A stretch of 64,000 nt of DNA, taken from NCBI GenBank assembly GCA_007618135.1, contig PHFX01000009.1, positions 1 through 64,000 of the forward strand, read 5' to 3'. The stretch is from Candidatus Brocadia sp. WS118 (GTDB lineage: Bacteria; Planctomycetota; Brocadiia; Brocadiales; Brocadiaceae). Position 1 is the first letter of the stretch, and each line of letters opens with the position of its first letter. The notes under the pieces were generated by a model. That model had not been told where the DNA came from. It made no database searches and saw only the letters and a list, made by a program, of their open reading frames with translations. A program made the translations under genes and the position numbers. This document shows positions 2,503 to 45,503 of the stretch, one piece after another.

Positions 2503-2591
2503 AAACTTGCCTCCTAACAAAATATGCATTAATAATGTATCTTTGTCAAAGAATTACTGAGACTTCATAGAAATTCCCAGGTGACATTGTT

Positions 2592-2879
2592 TTATACCGC
2601 AAGTGTTTCAACCATTTTCCATGCCTGAGATTTTTGGGAAACATGCCATAAATCGTAATTTTGCTGTAAATTCAGCCATAGTTGAGGTGTTGTGCTGAAT
2701 GCCTTTGATAGACGTAACGCCATGTCCGTGGTAATTGAACCATGTTCGTTAACAATCCCGGACAGTGTTTTTCTTGAAACTCCGAGTGATTTTGCGAGTT
2801 CTGAAATTGTCAAATTCAGAGGTTCTAGATAATGTCTTTTCAATATGCCGCCCGGATGTATTGGGGGTCTCGTTCTCAT
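2592..2879 (-). CDS. higA: HigA-type XRE antitoxin, orphan
   Basis: Ninety-five residues, standard length for HigA. The N-terminal MRTRPPIHPGGILKRHYLEP (HPGxxL motif) and the helix-turn-helix TISELAKSLGVSRKTLSGIV are diagnostic, followed by the DMALRLSKAFSTTPQLWLNL motif. HigA normally follows a HigB toxin, but 2880-3072 on the same strand has no such gene, so this copy is orphan. It may now act only as a repressor; a palindrome at 2943-2963 upstream is a candidate operator. Confidence 0.88.
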   Translation of the reverse strand: MRTRPPIHPGGILKRHYLEPLNLTISELAKSLGVSRKTLSGIVNEHGSITTDMALRLSKAFSTTPQLWLNLQQNYDLWHVSQKSQAWKMVETLAV

Positions 2880-2942
2880 TTATAATTCTCCTAATGATAA
2901 TTTCCAAGCCCTTTGTGCGCAAAACTTTTAATCATCGAAATA

Positions 2943-2963
2943 GTGTAACCTGATTAGTTACAC
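2943..2963. promoter_or_regulatory. Palindromic candidate operator upstream of orphan higA
   Basis: GTGTAAC (2943-2949) and GTTACAC (2957-2963) are perfect 7-bp arms separated by 7 bp, centred about 75 bp upstream of the higA start. XRE antitoxins bind such palindromes in their own promoters. Assignment is by position and symmetry. Confidence 0.4.
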
Positions 2964-3072
2964 ATGTCAAAGGTAAATCGCTTTGCTTGCCACTGAAGGT
3001 AAACTATGTCACGACGCAAATGAATGTTCTTGATAATTTTTTTACAACAGCCATCATAAAAATATGGGTAAG

Positions 3073-3774
3073 TTACAGATCGGTACACAGGCGGTAGCCT
3101 ACGCACGGCTCAGTAAGGATATAGGCGGGTCTGTCGGGATCGGGTTCTATTTTATTTCGCAAATTACTCATCGTCACCCGTAAGAGGTGTAATGCCTCTT
3201 CAACGTCTTCGGTCTTATCCCAGATTTCTTTTAAGATCTGTCCATGCGTCATAATCTTTCCCGCGTTTAAGACAAGGACTTTGAGAAGGTCATACTCTGT
3301 TGGCGTGAGATGAACAAGGTGACCGTTTACTTCCACGCTATGTTGTGCGATATCTACCGATAGTTTTCCTACCGTAAATAATGATTTCTCGCTTTGAGGA
3401 AGAAGCCTTCTCATAACCGCCCGGATTCGTGCAAGCATTTCACCGGCATGAAAAGGTTTGGTAAGATAATCATCCGCCCCGGCGTCCAGGGCGGTAATCT
3501 TATCAAATTCGTCTTCCCGGACAGACAGGATAATAATAGGAGTTTTCGATCTTTCCCGTATCTGGCGGGTAATATCGACCCCGTCCATGTCTGGTAAACC
3601 CAAATCCAAAATAATCACATCAGGATGCGAAGAAACAGCATATTTCAAAGCCTCTGCACCATTTGCAGCCTCGAACACGTCATAGTCGTGGGAAACCAGG
3701 GTTGCTTTTAAAAAACGTCTGATCGTTCTTTCATCATCGACAATAAGGATTCGCATTTTTTCCTGCCCTGCCAT
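3073..3774 (-). CDS. kdpE: KdpE-like OmpR-family response regulator
   Basis: A 233-residue regulator: receiver domain (residues about 8-120) with phospho-acceptor Asp57 in VIILDLGLPDMDG and the conserved Lys in LTKPFHAGEML, then a winged-helix DNA-binding domain ending in GVGYRL-like CVGYRLCTDL. The start shown directly abuts the TAA of the sensor kinase gene; the internal Met7 (MRILIVDDE) is an equally plausible start. In KdpDE systems the regulator activates high-affinity potassium uptake. No kdpFABC genes lie in the window, but a KimA-like potassium permease does (8893-10890). Confidence 0.9.
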   Translation of the reverse strand: MAGQEKMRILIVDDERTIRRFLKATLVSHDYDVFEAANGAEALKYAVSSHPDVIILDLGLPDMDGVDITRQIRERSKTPIIILSVREDEFDKITALDAGADDYLTKPFHAGEMLARIRAVMRRLLPQSEKSLFTVGKLSVDIAQHSVEVNGHLVHLTPTEYDLLKVLVLNAGKIMTHGQILKEIWDKTEDVEEALHLLRVTMSNLRNKIEPDPDRPAYILTEPCVGYRLCTDL

Positions 3775-35081: not shown

Positions 35082-35378
35082 TTAATGTGCACGTTTTTTC
35101 CAATAAAAGGGTTTTTTGCTGGTATGTGCAAAAGCTATTATCCAAATGTAATCATCAAACTCATCGTAATAGATAAAATAGGGAAACCTTTGAAGCAAAT
35201 GCCTCCTAACTCCGTGTTTGGTTTCCGTGTATAACTTTGGATTTTCTTGTATGGAAATAAGCGCCTTTCGTACCTCATTTTCAAAATCTAAACCTAGACC
35301 AGTAACTTTATCTTCGTAGTACTCAACTGCGTGGCACAACTCTTTTTCAGCGTCTTCGTGAATAATCACACTTTTCAT
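35082..35378 (-). CDS. ParE/RelE-type toxin
   Basis: Ninety-eight residues: MKSVIIHEDAEKELCHAVEY, LGLDFENEVRKAL, then HLLQRFPYFIYYDEFDDYIW and IAFAHTSKKPFYW, the ParE/RelE superfamily pattern. It overlaps the upstream antitoxin by four bases. Targets of ParE-like toxins are DNA gyrase or ribosome-bound mRNA; this one is unassigned. Confidence 0.9.
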   Translation of the reverse strand: MKSVIIHEDAEKELCHAVEYYEDKVTGLGLDFENEVRKALISIQENPKLYTETKHGVRRHLLQRFPYFIYYDEFDDYIWIIAFAHTSKKPFYWKKRAH

Positions 35379-35605
35379 TGATATTTGGCTTTGATTTCAG
35401 ATAGTATTTGCACTGCCGGTTTTCCCTTTGCAATTCCATTTTTTATATCTCTTACCCTCCGATTAATCTCCGTCTCCCAGGCATTATTTATATCAGAATC
35501 GACATGTTCATCTAAGCTTGTGATTAATTTGTGAGCTAATTTTGCCCGGTCTTTTAATGGTAAAGATAAGACATCTTTCGTCATTTTTTCCAGTGAGTTA
35601 GACAT
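35375..35605 (-). CDS. Addiction-module antitoxin (TIGR02574 type)
   Basis: Seventy-six residues with LSLPLKDRAKLAHKLITSLD near the N-terminus, an Asp/Trp-containing NAWETEINRRVRDI and a Lys-rich end, the pattern of the TIGR02574 addiction-module component that precedes ParE-like toxins. It is translationally coupled to 35082-35378. Confidence 0.88.
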   Translation of the reverse strand: MSNSLEKMTKDVLSLPLKDRAKLAHKLITSLDEHVDSDINNAWETEINRRVRDIKNGIAKGKPAVQILSEIKAKYQ

Positions 35606-38099: not shown

Positions 38100-38147
38100 T
38101 TTTGCTTTCGACTCCTACTTGATCGGGAATGATAAATTGTATATTTT

Positions 38148-38235
38148 GTAATAATTAAGTAGGGGCGAAGCATTTGCTGTGATTGTCATGAACGCATTCA
38201 CACCAAAATGGGCAAATGCTTCGCCCCTACCCTAT
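38148..38235. mobile_element. IS66-like MITE, partial copy D (core type 1)
   Basis: The hairpin arms AGGGGCGAAGCATTTGCTGT and GGCAAATGCTTCGCCCCTAC are intact, but the left terminus is decayed (TTGTAATAATTAAG) and the right one is lost. It separates uvrB from the three-gene TIGR04255 module and lies at the 3' end of the last gene of that module. Confidence 0.65.
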
Positions 38236-38623
38236 TTAATCAGTTTTAAATGATGAAATGCCTTTGCCTGTAACTGAAATATCCGCAAGAAGCTTTTCTA
38301 TGGTTCCTCCGGTTGCGGCATAAGCAACAAATATCTCGTCCGCTTATCAAGGCGTGGGCATAGTTGGCGGGTTGTGGATCATGTACACATTCTAGCCCCA
38401 ATTCTCTGGGTTGTTGTGCTTTTAGATAATACAACCTAAACCTATGGATATCTTGGATACTATCCTGGTAGGTGGTTAATCTTTCAACGTTTACAGAAAG
38501 GCCATACTTTCCTTTTTTTAATTGATATGCGCATGAGGTAAGAGTGCCGTCATCCCTTACATAATTAGGGTCAACAAAGGGAACTCTTCTCAGCAGATTA
38601 TCATTATCCAGTATGACTTCCAT
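38236..38623 (-). CDS. Third gene of TIGR04255 module, 3' frameshift
   Basis: Frame one starts MEVILDNDNLLRRVPFVDPN and continues through ECVHDPQPANYAHALISG. Beyond that the open frame is nonsense (RDICCLCRNRRNHRK). The other frame continues sensibly as DEIFVAYAATGGTIEKLLAD and ends at TAA 38236. A single-base shift near 38340 therefore splits the gene; a sequencing error or a real mutation would look the same. The HDPxPxNxAHALI motif is shared, from memory, with small proteins often found beside TIGR04255 genes. Function unknown. Its start shares one base with the previous stop (TAATG). Confidence 0.65.
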
Positions 38624-39096
38624 TAAAACAGTTCAAGTATTCGAGGCAATAAATGATCAAGCATACCCTCTGAAATACAGGCATCGCCCTCATATATCAA
38701 AACCTCATTTGAATTATCGGCATTGAAATATACTTCAGCCTCGTAATTTCCTTTTCTAAGCTCTACCACAATTTCCCCATTAGGTCCTGGAGCAGTAAAG
38801 CAAGCCGGAATTCCATGTGCATCAATGACTCTTATAAATGATAATGCATTAACAATGGCGCTTTCTGAAGGTTTTTCAGCGCCATAACTATCCCAATTAT
38901 CTGCAAAATTTCTAAAACCTAAAATTTTTGAGGCAGTTTTTATGGCTGCATTACTTAATGGAGGCGTATCTGAATAAATATCTATAACAATGCTCGTATT
39001 CCATTCCTGTTGTTCGGTTTCAAATGCTTCTGAAAGATAAATAGAGGAGTTTGCACAACGTTTTCTATATGGAGGCGCTTCTTGTAAAGCTATCAT
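38623..39096 (-). CDS. Second gene of TIGR04255 module, unknown function
   Basis: A 157-residue protein without membrane segments. The central part reads FRNFADNWDSYGAEKPSESA and then FTAPGPNGEIVVELRKGNYE, a pattern (WDSYGA, then a predicted beta sheet) that I associate with small proteins encoded beside TIGR04255 genes. It overlaps the preceding gene by 32 bp and the next by one base, so the three are translationally coupled. No catalytic motif is visible. Confidence 0.7.
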   Translation of the reverse strand: MIALQEAPPYRKRCANSSIYLSEAFETEQQEWNTSIVIDIYSDTPPLSNAAIKTASKILGFRNFADNWDSYGAEKPSESAIVNALSFIRVIDAHGIPACFTAPGPNGEIVVELRKGNYEAEVYFNADNSNEVLIYEGDACISEGMLDHLLPRILELF

Positions 39097-39856
39097 AAAA
39101 CTTTCCCCTTGTCATTTCTTTAAATAATGGTGAAATAATTTCGTGGGCATGTGTGCACCATTCCGTCATTTCATTTCTGGTAAACCTGCCTTTTTTGACT
39201 ATTGCTGTTTGCCAAACCAGTGTGGGATCATGGGTTTTTTTATCACTGCCTGTTGTTACGTTAATGTGCAAAGCAGACCCATCTCTTAACCCGAATATTT
39301 GATTCAGGTTCAGACTTTCCATGGGGCCGAGTGTGTCAAAATGGTTATGCAGTTCTATTTTCAGCGAATCATGTATAAAAGGTAATAAATTATCTTTGAC
39401 GGTTACATGATAATCCTTCAATTTGACAGCATCAATGTAGCGTAGGCTGCAAAAATTCAGGTTTATTTTTTGATTATACGCCTCAAATAGCCTGTTTGTG
39501 GATGCCTCAATCATTGGAAAAAAGGTACCCTTCCAACAATACTTTTTGTCAGTATCATTTACGGTAAAAATGCCGGGACCCAATTGCAGTACGGGCCAAA
39601 TATCTTCACCTTCCCAAAACTGATAGATGGCGGAATAGTTTAGTAAATCTGTTGGAAAATCAGCGGGAATTTTACGTATTATGTGAGGAAAATCGTTTTT
39701 CAGCAAGGTTGCCAATTGTCCTAAGGCAATAGCAAAACCCTCATCAAATTCCCGATTGCTGGCTGGATTTATATTTAAATCCCAGCGAATTTCAAATATC
39801 ACTTCTTGTAAAGGTGCGTTAAGGAGTTTTTCGATATGTTCGTTATTCGATATCAT
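39065..39856 (-). CDS. TIGR04255 family protein
   Basis: A 263-residue protein with the family hallmark near the start, LNAPLQEVIFEIRWDLNI, then a mixed alpha/beta body (YSAIYQFWEGEDIWPVLQLG and FCSLRYIDAV) and a C-terminal helix ending SPLFKEMTRGKFYDSF. The family is sporadically distributed in bacteria and archaea and has no known function. It opens the three-gene module and lies next to the SIR2 operon on the same strand. Confidence 0.78.
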   Translation of the reverse strand: MISNNEHIEKLLNAPLQEVIFEIRWDLNINPASNREFDEGFAIALGQLATLLKNDFPHIIRKIPADFPTDLLNYSAIYQFWEGEDIWPVLQLGPGIFTVNDTDKKYCWKGTFFPMIEASTNRLFEAYNQKINLNFCSLRYIDAVKLKDYHVTVKDNLLPFIHDSLKIELHNHFDTLGPMESLNLNQIFGLRDGSALHINVTTGSDKKTHDPTLVWQTAIVKKGRFTRNEMTEWCTHAHEIISPLFKEMTRGKFYDSFTRSASI

Positions 39857-40039
39857 ATTTTATTAAAAATACGATTTATTTGTGTATATCGGAATAGGGC
39901 TATTTCTATAGATTTATTAATCTTATACATTGTTTAGCCTGAAATCAAGGATTGAGTATTGAAGAGAAATTAAAAACACACAAAAGCAAAAGTCGGTTAT
40001 TACGATAAATTTTAATAGAATATTCCAATGAAATAAAAC

Positions 40040-40150
40040 CTATTCTGCGGCTTCGCCTTCTTTGCCCATGCGATATTTGATGTTGTAATTGATGAAAAAA
40101 ATCCACCTCATTATCCGTAAAGCCGTATTCAAATATTCTCGTAATATAGA
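40040..40150 (-). pseudogene. Relic of the C-terminus of a restriction-modification methylase (copy B)
   Basis: The minus strand reads YGFTDNEVDFF, then after a one-base shift INYNIKYRMGKEGEAAE and a stop. This closely resembles the last residues of Eco57I/type IIG-like DNA methylase-endonuclease proteins. It begins directly after the stop of the 949-residue gene. A second, different relic of the same kind is at 43964-44180. Stretch 39857-40158 contains nothing else I can identify. Confidence 0.55.
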
Positions 40151-40158
40151 CAAAGGCA

Positions 40159-43008
40159 TTAAAGCGACTTTTCAAGTTCTTTGTTTTTCTCAACAGCGTC
40201 CTTTATTTCAGCAAGCCACGTTCGTGGTCTCTCAATTCCAAGTCGTATATAAGCATCAACTACCTCTTTAGCCTTCCTCTCGCCATTAGCCCCCAACGCA
40301 ATTAGATTCTTGAATATCAGTCGGATTGCACCTTCAGGGTAATCGTAGGTATAAGATGCGAGCATTTTGATCCAAATCTTTTGCGCTTCCAACGGCTGCG
40401 AATCACTAATTCCAGCCAAACTTTGCAGTAAATCAGATGCATTGTGGTTTTCGCCTGCATAAGGCGCTATTTTTAGCAGCCAAGTTTCTATGGTAGTATC
40501 TATTTGATCTACAAATGATGCCCAACGACACAGCTTCGAAGCCAATATCCGACCTTCTCTGGAGTTAACATCAACAATCTCTAATAATCGCGGCCATAAT
40601 GCATAGACTTTTTCTCTCAATTTCACGTCATCTTTCCTGCGCAACGTCCAAATAAACCATACAAGTTCGCTCAGTTCATCTAATTTTTCACGCTCAATAA
40701 GATTCGACAGAAGACTATCAGATTGTTTAATATCCTCAAAACTGTTTATATATGCAACCGCAATATTCTGTATGATTCTTTCGTTTACCCTTTTTCCAAG
40801 GCATCCATCATCGAGCCCCTTAAGAAAATCTCCACTTGCCTTTAGGTATTTATAAAATTCCTCGTATATGGTACCGACATAAGAATAACCCTGCATGGCA
40901 CAAAGCCATTTTTGATAACTCGATTGATCAAAAATATCAGAAAGATGAGACATCACCCACTCACGGGACATATAAAGAAAATTTGGAAGGTACATTGCTA
41001 CGAGCGTCGCAAATTCGTATTCTCCCCTTTGACTGCGCTTGAGCTCTGCCTCATAGATACTCTCATATTGGTTCCATGCCTGAGTATGATTACCGTGCTC
41101 TTTATGAGCCAATCGGCACGAGCGAAGTGTAAGGTTCACCAACCCTTCTATACAGCGCCCTAGCGGGCTATTGATAGCTACAGAACCTGCGTCACTATCG
41201 TGTTTAAACTCCTCACCTTCTTGTCGTTCAAGCAAGACAAGAAGAACTTCTTTTGCTTTTGGCAATAAACTTTTATCAAACGCGTGATCATCAGACCTTG
41301 TTCCTTCTTCAATCAGCCGCCCAATCGCCCCCACGATCCAATGCCGATTTGCAACAAAACTCGGCCTTTCCTTAGCGTTTTCTGCTGACCAAAATTTATC
41401 TCTTTTGACGAGGTCTCGACAGAAATCAAGCAGAAGTGGCCACACATCATTCCAGGGCAATTCCCTCTTTTCGCTCCACAATTCACGATATGCCTCTATG
41501 AGAGGATAAATAAATGCCAAGTCAATGTTGGTGAACTTCGTCAGTTCACGATAAATATCTTTTGCCTTAGTCTTAACAACATCCTTGAAAGACTTTACCA
41601 AGCCCTCTAGTCCAGGCTCGTCAAGCCAACCTTGCCCAGTATCTTTGTAATTGTTAATGGTTTCAACAAGTGAATCTACGTTTAGGGTAAGTAAGTGTTC
41701 TATCGGTATAGGTGATTTGTGTTCAACCCAGCCCGAAGTCATATAGCTCGAAAAATCCGGATGCTTCGGTTCTGCCTCTGTCATGGTAGTATATTTTTTA
41801 TAAAGCTCAATAGTTACATCTGAATAATCCTTGATTGCTGACAACCATATTGCCCGTTTATAGGCTGTCGCCCTTGCATTAACGCTTTTGTCTTTGTCAA
41901 CAACTTCCAACCCTTCGATAATTTCTACAACTCTTTTTTTCTGATCAGGATTAAATTCATCATAGTGACCGTTGAGTAAATGCCAAAGTTCATGCCGAAA
42001 ATTATTATGAAAGTATTCAGGAAATAATGCAGTGTCAACTAAGTTTTTGAGCACAGTATATTGTTTATTTAGTATGTGGATAGCTACACGTTTTAGTGTT
42101 TGATATTGGTCACCAAACGTAGACCGGAGATAATTAGTAGCTTCTTGAGCATTATTATCAACGAATCCTGAAAGGCAATCTCTATATGCAGCTACTATCA
42201 GATCGTCTACATCGTCAAGACTACCGTTTTGTTTATGCTCCTCTATTGCCGGGCGCCAGATTGATGACCAGGAATCTTTGTCGCCTTCGTTGAGAATTGA
42301 AACCAGTCGGTTTTGAAAAATTTTTACAGCAGGCAAGCCTAATTTTAGCCCACTTAATTTAGTAACGTTCTTCGTTATTTCCTCTGCATGATAAGAATCA
42401 TATCTAAGCAACGGCTCTTTCCTCTCGTAGTCACCGGTCTTTCTCTTTACAAAATTGACTTTATATAAGCAATCCAATAGACGCAAAGCAATTTGCATAC
42501 AATGATCATCTTGTTTACCAAGCAAATCAGGCAACCATTTTTCTCCGACTTCTTCTGCGACGAGACCCCTGTCATAGGGATCGTCAAGCCAATAATCTAT
42601 TAACTCGATATCCTCTACCTTGATTAAGTGAACGGGTATATTCCTTATAATTTTTGCGAGTTGCCACCAGGTTCTGTAATTGCTATAATTTTTGGTTTTG
42701 GCGTGTAATGTAATTGTTCTGATCAATTCGATGAATTTGACCGCATATTCTTCGTTTTCTGGTACAGACAACTCTTTGCTTGTAGTAACGAGGTACTCAG
42801 TGACTGGCCAAAAAGGAATATTTACGAAACCGTCCTCCCTTGCCGATACGGGTTTTGGGTTCTTCTCTGGCACAAAAAAACCACTATCGTGCAATGGATT
42901 AAACCAATGCAACCCTTTTAACTTACGAAAAAAGAAAGGCTGAAGCTCAGGCTTTTTCAATACTCGATCCAGCAAATCTTTTTCTTTTATGCTAAGCTCA
43001 CGCATCAA
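40159..43008 (-). CDS. Large helical protein, partner of SIR2-like protein
   Basis: A 949-residue protein, apparently almost all alpha-helical, with no P-loop or nuclease motif that I can see. The N-terminal LQPFFFRKLKGLHWFNPLHD, then SGFF, resembles segments at the start of helical-repeat regions in bacterial NLR-like and SIR2-associated defence proteins. Many Trp-rich helices follow. Its start overlaps the stop of the SIR2 gene by four bases. The likely role is a sensor or scaffold that controls the SIR2 enzyme, by analogy with single-chain DSR proteins that join SIR2 to a long helical region. This is inference; a search for homologous gene pairs would decide it. Confidence 0.72.
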   Translation of the reverse strand: MMRELSIKEKDLLDRVLKKPELQPFFFRKLKGLHWFNPLHDSGFFVPEKNPKPVSAREDGFVNIPFWPVTEYLVTTSKELSVPENEEYAVKFIELIRTITLHAKTKNYSNYRTWWQLAKIIRNIPVHLIKVEDIELIDYWLDDPYDRGLVAEEVGEKWLPDLLGKQDDHCMQIALRLLDCLYKVNFVKRKTGDYERKEPLLRYDSYHAEEITKNVTKLSGLKLGLPAVKIFQNRLVSILNEGDKDSWSSIWRPAIEEHKQNGSLDDVDDLIVAAYRDCLSGFVDNNAQEATNYLRSTFGDQYQTLKRVAIHILNKQYTVLKNLVDTALFPEYFHNNFRHELWHLLNGHYDEFNPDQKKRVVEIIEGLEVVDKDKSVNARATAYKRAIWLSAIKDYSDVTIELYKKYTTMTEAEPKHPDFSSYMTSGWVEHKSPIPIEHLLTLNVDSLVETINNYKDTGQGWLDEPGLEGLVKSFKDVVKTKAKDIYRELTKFTNIDLAFIYPLIEAYRELWSEKRELPWNDVWPLLLDFCRDLVKRDKFWSAENAKERPSFVANRHWIVGAIGRLIEEGTRSDDHAFDKSLLPKAKEVLLVLLERQEGEEFKHDSDAGSVAINSPLGRCIEGLVNLTLRSCRLAHKEHGNHTQAWNQYESIYEAELKRSQRGEYEFATLVAMYLPNFLYMSREWVMSHLSDIFDQSSYQKWLCAMQGYSYVGTIYEEFYKYLKASGDFLKGLDDGCLGKRVNERIIQNIAVAYINSFEDIKQSDSLLSNLIEREKLDELSELVWFIWTLRRKDDVKLREKVYALWPRLLEIVDVNSREGRILASKLCRWASFVDQIDTTIETWLLKIAPYAGENHNASDLLQSLAGISDSQPLEAQKIWIKMLASYTYDYPEGAIRLIFKNLIALGANGERKAKEVVDAYIRLGIERPRTWLAEIKDAVEKNKELEKSL

Positions 43009-43928
43009 CCAAGAACCTCATCCATAAACTCTAAATCTTTAACTAATGCCGGTGGCTTTACTTCAATTTGTTCTGACCATGCCTTGACAATATCCTCTAA
43101 CTGTTTATAGTCTTTATGATCTCTTATAAAGCCAATCAGATGCACACCAAATGATTTCAAATAATATTCGCAAAGCATTTTATAAAGCGGAGACTGGCTC
43201 AGGAAAAAGGGCATCAAGGCAAATCGCCTCTTATTCTTAGTATCTTGTACTCTTCCCCTTCTTAATATATGTTCTAATATTTCGGATTCCTCCAGGCGAT
43301 AGCCGATAAATAGGATTGTTTTTTTCTCAAATAGCTCACCAAGAAAAACTTTCACCGTCTCATCATCATAATGTTCAAGGTATTGTTTGGTGGTAAACAC
43401 CATGCCCTCTGGGCTGCTTACCGAGCCATGTAGATGCACTACAGTGCCTGGTGTATTTAGATGACCCGCGTGAAAATCTTTTTTTCGAGAAACCCTAGTA
43501 ATCGGGGCCGCTGTAACTGAGCCGTCTTTGGTTATGGAAAAATGAGGTTCAAGCAACTCATCATAATTTGTTGTAACGCAGGGACAGCCAATCTTGTTCA
43601 GATAACTATATATTTCTCTATCACCATCCTCGAAAGCCACATGTTTGGGCAGTTCAAGAGAAATAGAGTTTTCCTTAGCTATCAGCTCTGCGATAGAAAG
43701 TTGTTTCTTGGGTTCAATGCCCTTTAATTGCTCCAGTTCTGAATAGTTTAGACATCCTTTTTGACGAAGTTCTTCAAGCGCTTTAAAGGCGAGGCCGTCC
43801 CATGAAGGTAATCCAACCAGCATCGAAACACCAGCCCCCACAAAAAGCACAAGATCGCCGTCGAGTGCTGCCTGTCGGATTTCTTCTGGTAGTTCTGGTA
43901 CTTCTCTTAAATCTGGTGGTCTATTCAT
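43005..43928 (-). CDS. SIR2-like NAD-binding protein, likely defence effector
   Basis: A 307-residue SIR2-domain protein. The NAD-binding GAGVS is at 31-35 in LVLFVGAGVSMLVGLPSW. TTNYDE includes Asn121, and VVHLHGS includes His165 and His167, where the catalytic His lies. ILFIGYRLEESEI closes the fold. All catalytic positions appear intact. It is distinct from the protein deacetylase CobB, which has a Zn-binding Cys set that I do not see here. SIR2 domains of this branch in defence systems (Thoeris ThsA, DSR, SIR2-HerA) destroy NAD on infection. It is the first gene of a two-gene operon with the 949-residue protein. No membrane segment. Confidence 0.85.
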   Translation of the reverse strand: MNRPPDLREVPELPEEIRQAALDGDLVLFVGAGVSMLVGLPSWDGLAFKALEELRQKGCLNYSELEQLKGIEPKKQLSIAELIAKENSISLELPKHVAFEDGDREIYSYLNKIGCPCVTTNYDELLEPHFSITKDGSVTAAPITRVSRKKDFHAGHLNTPGTVVHLHGSVSSPEGMVFTTKQYLEHYDDETVKVFLGELFEKKTILFIGYRLEESEILEHILRRGRVQDTKNKRRFALMPFFLSQSPLYKMLCEYYLKSFGVHLIGFIRDHKDYKQLEDIVKAWSEQIEVKPPALVKDLEFMDEVLG

Positions 43929-43963
43929 TCCCTAACCTTAATCGTTAGAAGAAAGATTTTTCT

Positions 43964-44180
43964 TTAGTCATTTGCATCTTCACAACTGTTCCGCCCCATG
44001 CGGTATTTGATGTCGTAGTCGATGATAAAGTCTAATTCCTCGTTGGTAAAACCGTAATGCCGGGCAATACCTTGTCGACTTTGTCTATAATGGTTTGGAG
44101 ATCCTCAGATAAAGTTCTTGATGAAGTAATGTTTCCCGTTTTTGCTGAGACTTTTTCCTGTAATTGGCTTTTTTTCTAAT
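43964..44180 (-). pseudogene. Relic of the C-terminus of a restriction-modification methylase (copy A)
   Basis: The minus strand reads QLQEKVSAKTGNITSSRTLS, then EDLQTIIDKVDK, a frameshift, then IARHYGFTNEELDFIIDYDI, KYRMGRNSCEDAND and TAA at 43964. The HYGFTxEELDFIIxYDIKYRMG ending is typical of type IIG/Eco57I-like methylases. Only the tail is left. It sits immediately upstream of the SIR2 gene. Its nucleotide sequence differs from copy B, so they are not a recent duplication. Confidence 0.62.
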
Positions 44181-44249
44181 CAACTATTAATTCATCACTA
44201 AGCTTCGAAGGCATTTTTACATTGATATATTTATTTTGGGAAGCTTACC

Positions 44250-45503
44250 TTACCCTTTGTAATATGTTGAGGACTTGTATTTTGAAATGATTTCGTCAAC
44301 AAAGACTTTTACCGTAGAGGCAATCGGTACGGCCAACAATAATCCCAAAAAGCCAAACAACTGGCTGCAGATCAGGATAGAGAGGATTACCATGACGGGG
44401 CTGAGCCCTAATCCCTTCCCCATAATCCGCGGCGTTATCACGGTTCCTTCAAGCATTTGCCCGATACCGAAGGTCATAATCACATATGCGATATGGGTGA
44501 AATCGTGAAAATGGAAGAGTGCGAGTGTAGAAGCCAGGACAATTCCTGTGCCGGTGCCAACATAAGGAATCAGGTTGCCAAAACCACCGATGAAACCGAT
44601 AAGAAATGACAAAGGAATTCCGGCAATCGTTAAACCAATGCTATAGATGAGAGAAAGGATAAGACAGATAATAAGCTGTCCTCGCAGAAAACACCGGAGA
44701 TTATCGTTTACCCGGGACAAGAGACCAATCGCCTGGTCTCTTTTTGACAAAGGAAAGATGGTTTTTATCTTTTGGGCAATGATATTAAAGTCCTTAAGCA
44801 GGTAAACGGATACGACGCTGAAGATGATAAAATTCAGGATGATGCCGAAAAAACCAAAGGTACTGTAAAAAATATTCCTGATGATATTGGTAAGAAACTC
44901 CATAACCTGTGGCAGATACTTTTTTAATTTCCATAAGATCTCTACGAACGGGATCCTTTTCACGCGCGATTTTTCGTCAGGTGCGGACTCTTGCGTGGAA
45001 ACCATCTCCTCTTCTCCAGGCTTATCAACAGGTGCAGATTCCATTTTTTCGCGATCACGGTCATGAACTGGTTCCTTAATTTCCTGTAACAGGGATTTGA
45101 CCGATTTGACAAATTCCGTGTCTCCGTACGTTTCGACCCACGCCTCAAGGGCGGCTTGATATTTCGGGTAGTGGTTTTTGATAATACCGCCAACCTGATA
45201 TATGCCACTGGCCGTTTTTGGAATTGCATAAGCCAGAAATCCAGCGGTAGTCAGGAGGACGATAATGAGAATGAAAGCGATGCCGAATCCGCGCTGAATG
45301 TGTTTTCGGGTAAACGGCCAGGTCCTTCGCTCGAAAAAATCAACGGCTGGATCAAAGATGTATGCGGTAATAAATGCCAGAAGAAGGGAGATAAGCGTCC
45401 CTCTCAGGAAATAACACAATACGAAAAAAACAATGCTTGCAATAACCGCGAGCATGAACCGTATCCACAGGTTATCCAACATTTTTTGCCGTTCATTTCC
45501 CAT
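44250..45503 (-). CDS. AI-2E family transporter
   Basis: A 417-residue membrane protein with the AI-2E (DUF20/PerM) arrangement: two N-terminal helices, a predicted soluble loop (about residues 130-195, rich in charged residues), then five or six helices including VPYVGTGTGIVLA and TPRIMGKGLGLSPVMVILSI. Members move small molecules or ions (autoinducer-2 export, Na+/H+ exchange); the substrate is not defined here. It lies five bases downstream of the ComEA-like gene. Confidence 0.88.
   Translation of the reverse strand: MGNERQKMLDNLWIRFMLAVIASIVFFVLCYFLRGTLISLLLAFITAYIFDPAVDFFERRTWPFTRKHIQRGFGIAFILIIVLLTTAGFLAYAIPKTASGIYQVGGIIKNHYPKYQAALEAWVETYGDTEFVKSVKSLLQEIKEPVHDRDREKMESAPVDKPGEEEMVSTQESAPDEKSRVKRIPFVEILWKLKKYLPQVMEFLTNIIRNIFYSTFGFFGIILNFIIFSVVSVYLLKDFNIIAQKIKTIFPLSKRDQAIGLLSRVNDNLRCFLRGQLIICLILSLIYSIGLTIAGIPLSFLIGFIGGFGNLIPYVGTGTGIVLASTLALFHFHDFTHIAYVIMTFGIGQMLEGTVITPRIMGKGLGLSPVMVILSILICSQLFGFLGLLLAVPIASTVKVFVDEIISKYKSSTYYKG

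Follow-up and report, generated by a model that had tools for sequence, protein, structure and literature searches.

The locus and its surroundings

The window, by which we mean the whole 64,000-nucleotide stretch of DNA analyzed here (contig PHFX01000009.1 of Candidatus Brocadia sp. WS118), contains three overlapping open reading frames on the minus strand. A sequence-only reading had placed them at 38236-39856, and they are indeed located there, the lower figure falling 10 bases past the stop codon of the last gene. We refer to the genes as A, B and C in the order in which they are read. In the window, the overlap is 32 bp between A and B and 1 bp between B and C. The features of the locus are as follows.

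39065..39856, minus strand: gene A, TIGR04255 family, 263 aa (open reading frame and NCBIfam match)
38623..39096, minus strand: gene B, the WDSYGA protein, PDC-M32A family, 157 aa
38246..38623, minus strand: gene C, the HDPQPANYAHALI protein, PDC-M32B family, a 125-aa open reading frame; its first ~95 residues form a domain, predicted to be minimal and ADP-ribosyltransferase-like, that contains R12, S43 and H90, and the remainder is non-native
38246..38345, minus strand: non-native 3' end of C, a deletion junction followed by the tail of a neighboring gene out of frame
38159..38230: palindromic repeat directly 3' of C, with 19-bp exact arms (38230-38212 and 38177-38159) read from the sequence
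38100..44249: accessory insertion comprising the trio and Dsr1, flanked by uvrB and an AI-2E-type transporter gene
43005..43928, minus strand: SIR2 half of Dsr1, 307 aa, matching positions 7-300 of 1227 of PDLC04166 (196 bits)
40159..43008, minus strand: second half of Dsr1, 949 aa, matching positions 309-1215 of 1227 of PDLC04166 (484 bits)

The assignment of A to TIGR04255 made in that earlier reading is borne out by a score of 90.6 bits against the NCBIfam model over residues 13-257, for which the curated cut-off is 30. A neighboring SIR2 operon had also been described, and the SIR2 gene with its 949-residue partner does lie 300 bp upstream of the trio, the two jointly matching the PADLOC system Dsr1. 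This Dsr1-like defense protein (40159-43928, minus strand) is encoded by two overlapping genes and not by one. On the opposite side of uvrB, the window holds a ParE-like toxin gene paired with an Unstab_antitox gene at 35082-35605 (minus strand). Elements resembling the palindromic repeat are seen near the same place in genomes G088 and G070. For genes of the window we use uvrB, AI-2E transporter and ComEA as names presumed from the sequences.

What the sequence-only reading overlooked is that C is truncated in the window. Up to about 38345 its DNA tracks that of two relatives, and beyond this point it is joined to the tail of a neighboring gene. The stretch missing from the window is present between C and uvrB in G217, a genome of the same genus, relative to which the deletion amounts to roughly 0.4 kb, and the same neighboring gene precedes uvrB in G070. 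Searched against its own genome, the non-native stretch of C has a single match, namely itself. The donor of the fused tail is represented at 2565-3119 (minus strand) of locus L265 and adjoins uvrB in both G070 and G217; we take this gene to be DprA-like. The palindromic repeat may have had a part in the rearrangements. The C gene of G217 carries a one-base frameshift. The last helix and strand are gone from the window C, so this copy likely yields no working toxin, and the module in the window is probably dead or defective.

Recurrence, transfer and neighbors of the trio

Three B proteins were used to scan genome contigs, yielding 77 loci, of which 70 have at least 600 bp upstream of B, our definition of upstream room, and 70 have room on both sides. 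Gene A lies upstream of B at 59 of the 70 loci with room, and C downstream of B at 69 of all 77. Recurrence in unrelated bacteria, which the sequence-only reading had suggested, is upheld by this check of gene neighborhoods: A and C flank B in the same order at 57 of 70 loci, with only A present at 2, only C at 5 and neither at 6. Across the 77 loci, the commonest overlap is 4 bp both between A and B (28 loci) and between B and C (30 loci). Complete trios span at least twelve phylum-level names, as judged by record titles that include Planctomycetota, Deltaproteobacteria, Nitrospirota, Acidobacteria, Alpha-, Beta- and Gammaproteobacteria, Bacteroidetes, Ignavibacteria, Cyanobacteria, Verrucomicrobia, Gemmatimonadota, WOR-3, KSB1, SAR324 and Mariprofundales. 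No fusion of B with C was seen among the loci examined.

Within 294 genomes of the window's phylum, TIGR04255 occurs at 67 places in 51 genomes. With the final profiles, built from the loci, B and C are both downstream at 23 of these places and only one of them at none, which argues that the trio is not a product of chance; an earlier count over the same 67 loci had found about 25 with B. When C was the starting point, with rows matched by hand and three split C genes merged, B was directly upstream at 35 of 36 places, and the lone C without it is a 50-residue fragment (G081:C30). Type II toxin-antitoxin systems always pair the toxin gene with an antitoxin gene, and C, the putative toxin gene, has B, the putative antitoxin gene, beside it at these 35 of 36 places. 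Conversely, 7 of 42 B rows have no C row, among them one with a C found by another profile (G166:C258) and one with a possible divergent C, judged by eye (G064:C121). Over 52 trios, pairwise distances correlate at 0.86 for A and B, 0.83 for A and C and 0.82 for B and C, against 0.29 for the best of 1000 permutations, and part of this co-inheritance may reflect host phylogeny. B and C form the core of the module.

The upstream position is less constant. TIGR04255 has neighbors other than B and C at 44 of the 67 places, and B-C pairs accept other upstream partners; the partners of TIGR04255 are thus constant only in part. On a Hymenobacter plasmid the partner is a DUF4209 protein, and at L041, L097 and L294 it is a small unclassified protein, which we presume to resemble DUF3467. 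B-C pairs without TIGR04255 are also found at L097, L098, L099 and L101. Elsewhere, genes found beside TIGR04255 include one that is MazF-like, with PDB matches at E 0.006, and one that is possibly of the PIN type (E 0.005; we take PAE0151 to be a PIN protein), which would suit a partner common to several effectors. Two further families, recognizable by 'QGDIF...LTQSCDL' and 'CIAWAA...THAARQL', recur downstream of TIGR04255 (L016, L019, L022, L068; L008-L010), and the two proteins tested from them have no relatives in PDB. DUF4209 is classed among the HEPN domains in PMC3710099, and the Hymenobacter protein that occupies the place of A could itself be a toxin.

Mobility, another suggestion of the sequence-only reading, is supported by comparison with related genomes. 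In the window, the trio and the split Dsr1 constitute a 6-kb insertion between uvrB and the transporter gene, and in G153 and G122, of the same genus, the site is empty, with uvrB and the homologue of the gene at 44250-45503 only 8-9 bp apart. In G088, which belongs to another genus, the trio sits on the opposite side of uvrB. Window and G088 proteins are 93% (A), 91% (B) and 92% (C) identical, compared with 84% for UvrB and 60% for ComEA, while the corresponding values for G217 are 97% for UvrB, 93% for A and 89% for B. Because the trio is more alike than UvrB across genera and empty sites exist, horizontal transfer is the best reading of these sequences. The three-gene unit is a real, mobile and widespread module.

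The gene most often split between frames is C, at 7 of 71 loci with a match; A is split at 2 of 64 and B at 1 of 77. The excess for C has p 0.018 relative to A and B together; relative to A it falls short of significance when counted by gene (Fisher p 0.17) and has p 0.015 per residue of exposure, and A is the fair comparison since the search for loci itself favored B. Some of the split genes may be assembly errors.

B also occurs by itself. In eight of nine viral contigs (L180-L187) it is present without A or C, whereas in the remaining one, L188, it is accompanied by A and perhaps, judged by eye, by a divergent C. The viral stand-alone genes have at least two contexts by eye, one beside a lysozyme-like and one beside an integrase-like gene. 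On an Acetobacter plasmid (L076, 7944-9249), a gene with two B domains overlaps a gene of the SspB family, a ClpXP adaptor. Against viral contigs, no match was obtained with the single A protein of the window or with the window C, nor against phages with the C of L033. Against the plasmids of PLSDB, the window C matched one Hymenobacter record, and neither the window B nor the B of L046 matched any.

The neighborhood of the trio was compared with PADLOC at E 1e-10, using 75 of 142 genes flanking ten trio loci and 75 of 142 control genes; at locus L203 the gene calling used for this comparison detected none of the trio, and the locus contributed no flank genes. Flank genes matched 178 PADLOC families and control genes 21, a contrast that is suggestive, as families and not genes are counted and many of the kinase and methyltransferase models overlap. 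The control regions themselves contain defense genes, including a type II system, plus one B-C pair. Single PADLOC scans of ten hand-picked large neighbors returned type III methyltransferases at two loci, DISARM DrmA and DrmB, a type IIG protein, a Snf2-type protein, the candidate PDC-M55C and a kinase, and nothing for two of the ten. In the window, the defense neighbor is Dsr1.

Predicted fold of C and features of A and B

Neither B nor C belongs to a Pfam or NCBIfam family above cut-off, and the two families searched against Pfam gave single weak hits and nothing more. The window C matches the PDC-M32B profile (PDLC04579) weakly, with E 2.4e-4 over residues 7-94 of 125, the PADLOC threshold not being stated, and the same profile matched none of 59 relatives, the window's own genome included. 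No convincing sequence relative of C was found in PDB. Structure was modeled for an intact homologue and not for the truncated window copy: the C of L103 (130 aa, 53 sequences) gave a mean pLDDT of 94.9. Its 12 best PDB chains by Foldseek are all Tpt1/KptA, with probabilities of 0.69-1.00 and E-values of 0.016-0.46, and its first 29 VIA-align rows are all ADP-ribosyltransferases (Z 8.7 to 3.6), the first other row having Z 3.2. The C family is thus predicted to have an ADP-ribosyltransferase fold, and the earlier statement that no NAD motif is visible does not sit with this model. In a viral structure library, C had no match at E 0.001; viral RNA 2'-phosphotransferases came weakly at ranks 8 and 23. 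C was also considered as a plain divergent KptA, a candidate rejected when profile comparison with 14 KptA sequences gave nothing (probability 0.2-0.3%).

The three most conserved positions among 89 C sequences are a histidine (88 of 89), a serine (87 of 89) and an arginine (87 of 89), corresponding to H90, S43 and R12 of the window protein, and all three are invariant in 24 diverse members. By strand order, the arginine falls in the first strand, the serine in the second, and the histidine begins the strand of the classical catalytic glutamate, so the Arg-Ser-His set of the model probably sits where the fold keeps its active site. Which residues of these strands are catalytic in ADP-ribosyltransferases is presumed here. 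Neither an R-S-E nor an H-Y-E triad is present, the conserved set being R-S-H, and enzymatic activity is not assured given a histidine in place of the catalytic glutamate. According to PMC8883491, there are variants that lack the acidic residue and compensate for its loss.

Thirteen of 25 aligned homologues of B match PDC-M32A (PDLC04576). For the window B itself, PADLOC gave no match at E 1 and PHROGs none, and there is no convincing relative among PDB sequences. The B family has conserved W-D and G...E-W motifs. In A and B, conservation is highest chiefly at Trp, Gly, Pro, Phe and Tyr and also at some Asp, Glu, Gln and Arg positions, and the conserved residues of A are mostly structural-looking.

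TIGR04255 is not among the PADLOC families, the window protein has no PADLOC match, no convincing PDB sequence relative of A was found, and no mention of TIGR04255 was found in open-licence papers. A model of the window A (52 sequences) reached pLDDT 69.8 and pTM 0.71. Its best VIA-align matches are the catalytic domains of guanidino kinases (Z 9.4, rmsd 3.6, 175 residues). We rejected A as a kinase, this being a likeness of fold at moderate Z in a pLDDT-70 model in which no nucleotide site could be read, and as a relative of the TATA-binding protein, the top Foldseek rows for which have query TM-scores of just 0.21-0.26 and rmsd >10.

Proposed function and known systems

A toxin-antitoxin or defense role, raised in the sequence-only reading, remains the best account of the module. 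We consider it somewhat more probable than not that the trio is a mobile, tripartite, toxin-antitoxin-like defense module with C as effector, B as antitoxin and A as a swappable sensor or chaperone. What computation shows is that the trio recurs in a set order, is mobile and has defense neighbors, and that C has a conserved triad and the fold predicted above; the ADP-ribosyltransferase-like fold in particular makes the module look like toxin-based defense and not a chance cluster. C would be a minimal NAD-using enzyme with an Arg-Ser-His active site, whose likeliest target would be RNA or another nucleic acid because C most resembles the catalytic lobe of Tpt1/KptA. B, encoded directly before C, would be its antitoxin or inhibitor, and A would be the exchangeable third part, sensing infection or stabilizing B. 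Interference with A would then free C, and growth of the infected cell would stop. A bolder and much more tentative version is that such modules form a widespread immune class in which interchangeable sensors (TIGR04255, DUF4209 and the small proteins) control one minimal Arg-Ser-His ADP-ribosyltransferase through a dedicated inhibitor, that the enzyme modifies the phosphate ends of nucleic acids, and that the stand-alone B genes of some phages are decoys.

It is doubtful, though the best of the alternatives, that A is the effector or sensor and B and C its regulators, with NAD, ADP-ribose or a nucleic acid bound as a signal by C, a catalytically dead ADP-ribosyltransferase-like domain. The histidine at the position expected for the catalytic glutamate would fit this, as would an upstream gene that varies, a common trait of effectors, with one variant in the HEPN class (PMC3710099), and the MazF-like and possibly PIN-like genes beside TIGR04255. 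However, 87-88 of 89 C sequences retain the triad, as they would an active site, A has no comparably clear set, and C is the gene most often split. We regard as unlikely a cassette for nucleic-acid repair or processing, in which a KptA-like C removes or caps phosphates on damaged RNA or DNA, A and B are accessory, and neither toxin nor defense is involved. The nearest folds do belong to enzymes that act on phosphate ends (PMC8053099, PMC8883491), but C is missing the KptA N-terminal lobe, and a sporadic, mobile distribution, defense neighbors and frequent decay of C are unlike housekeeping repair.

Rather unlikely, too, is a plain two-gene toxin-antitoxin pair of B and C with TIGR04255 as a frequent hitch-hiker that has its own function. 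The 5 of 70 loci, together with L097, L098, L099 and L101, where C is found without A would agree with it, as would the 44 of 67 TIGR04255 places without B-C, yet A is directly upstream of B at 59 of 70 loci, 4 bp being the commonest overlap, and varies together with B and C. That the trio is a chance or annotation artefact, for which the small size of the proteins and the want of a Pfam family for B and C might speak, is next to negligible in light of its fixed-order recurrence across phyla.

If the favored reading of a tripartite defense module is right, the analysis offers a biochemical hypothesis for two families known solely as a defense candidate and a genetic partner for the sporadic TIGR04255. 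Should C be active, its Arg-Ser-His triad and Tpt1-like fold would make it an ADP-ribosyltransferase effector of an unusual kind, and a natural set of sensors for comparison would be found in the swappable A.

The module was called possibly new, and this holds only in part, as B and C are the two families (PDC-M32A and PDC-M32B) of the PADLOC candidate PDC-M32. TIGR04255 does not belong to that candidate, and no biochemical role is given there. Such PDCs are guilt-by-embedding candidates, mostly unvalidated, according to PMC12988326, and PDC-M32 is reported in a Sinorhizobium prophage in PMC12429752. We found no ADP-ribosyltransferase assignment for PDC-M32 in open-licence papers, and no wet-lab evidence for the A, B or C families in the literature. 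The predicted fold of C and its conserved Arg-Ser-His appear to be new here.

The structural likeness of C is to the catalytic lobe of Tpt1/KptA (Z 8.7, 99 residues, rmsd 4.5; Z 8.6, 95 residues, rmsd 2.9), enzymes described as modifying phosphate ends of RNA and DNA (PMC8883491, PMC8053099). Unlike them, C has no N-terminal lobe, its alignment beginning at about KptA residue 68, and the HGT and HLS motifs of the 14 KptA sequences are absent, with Arg replacing the His of HGT. C also resembles a RES toxin in structure (Z 4.0), which recalls Xre-RES; however, none of 60 B proteins has an Xre-like match or, as in DarTG, a macrodomain match in Pfam at E 0.1.

In the CmdTAC system, a SecB-like chaperone senses a capsid protein and an mRNA ADP-ribosyltransferase is freed (PMC11618068). 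The CmdT triad is H-Y-[E,D,Q] on an exotoxin A-like fold, whereas that of C is R-S-H on a predicted Tpt1/KptA-like one; CmdC is SecB-like and A is not recognizably so, SecB being absent from the best 50 structural rows listed for A, which re-examine Foldseek matches and exclude nothing. The CmdTAC antitoxin ends in LAA, as do 0 of 25 B proteins, and its gene order is apparently different, the toxin coming last in the A-B-C module. Because the triad and the antitoxin ending differ, we do not file the trio as a TAC system. By analogy of logic, CmdTAC is nevertheless the nearest described system, with three genes, an effector of ADP-ribosyltransferase fold, two partners and, as we propose for the trio, release of the effector through the third protein.
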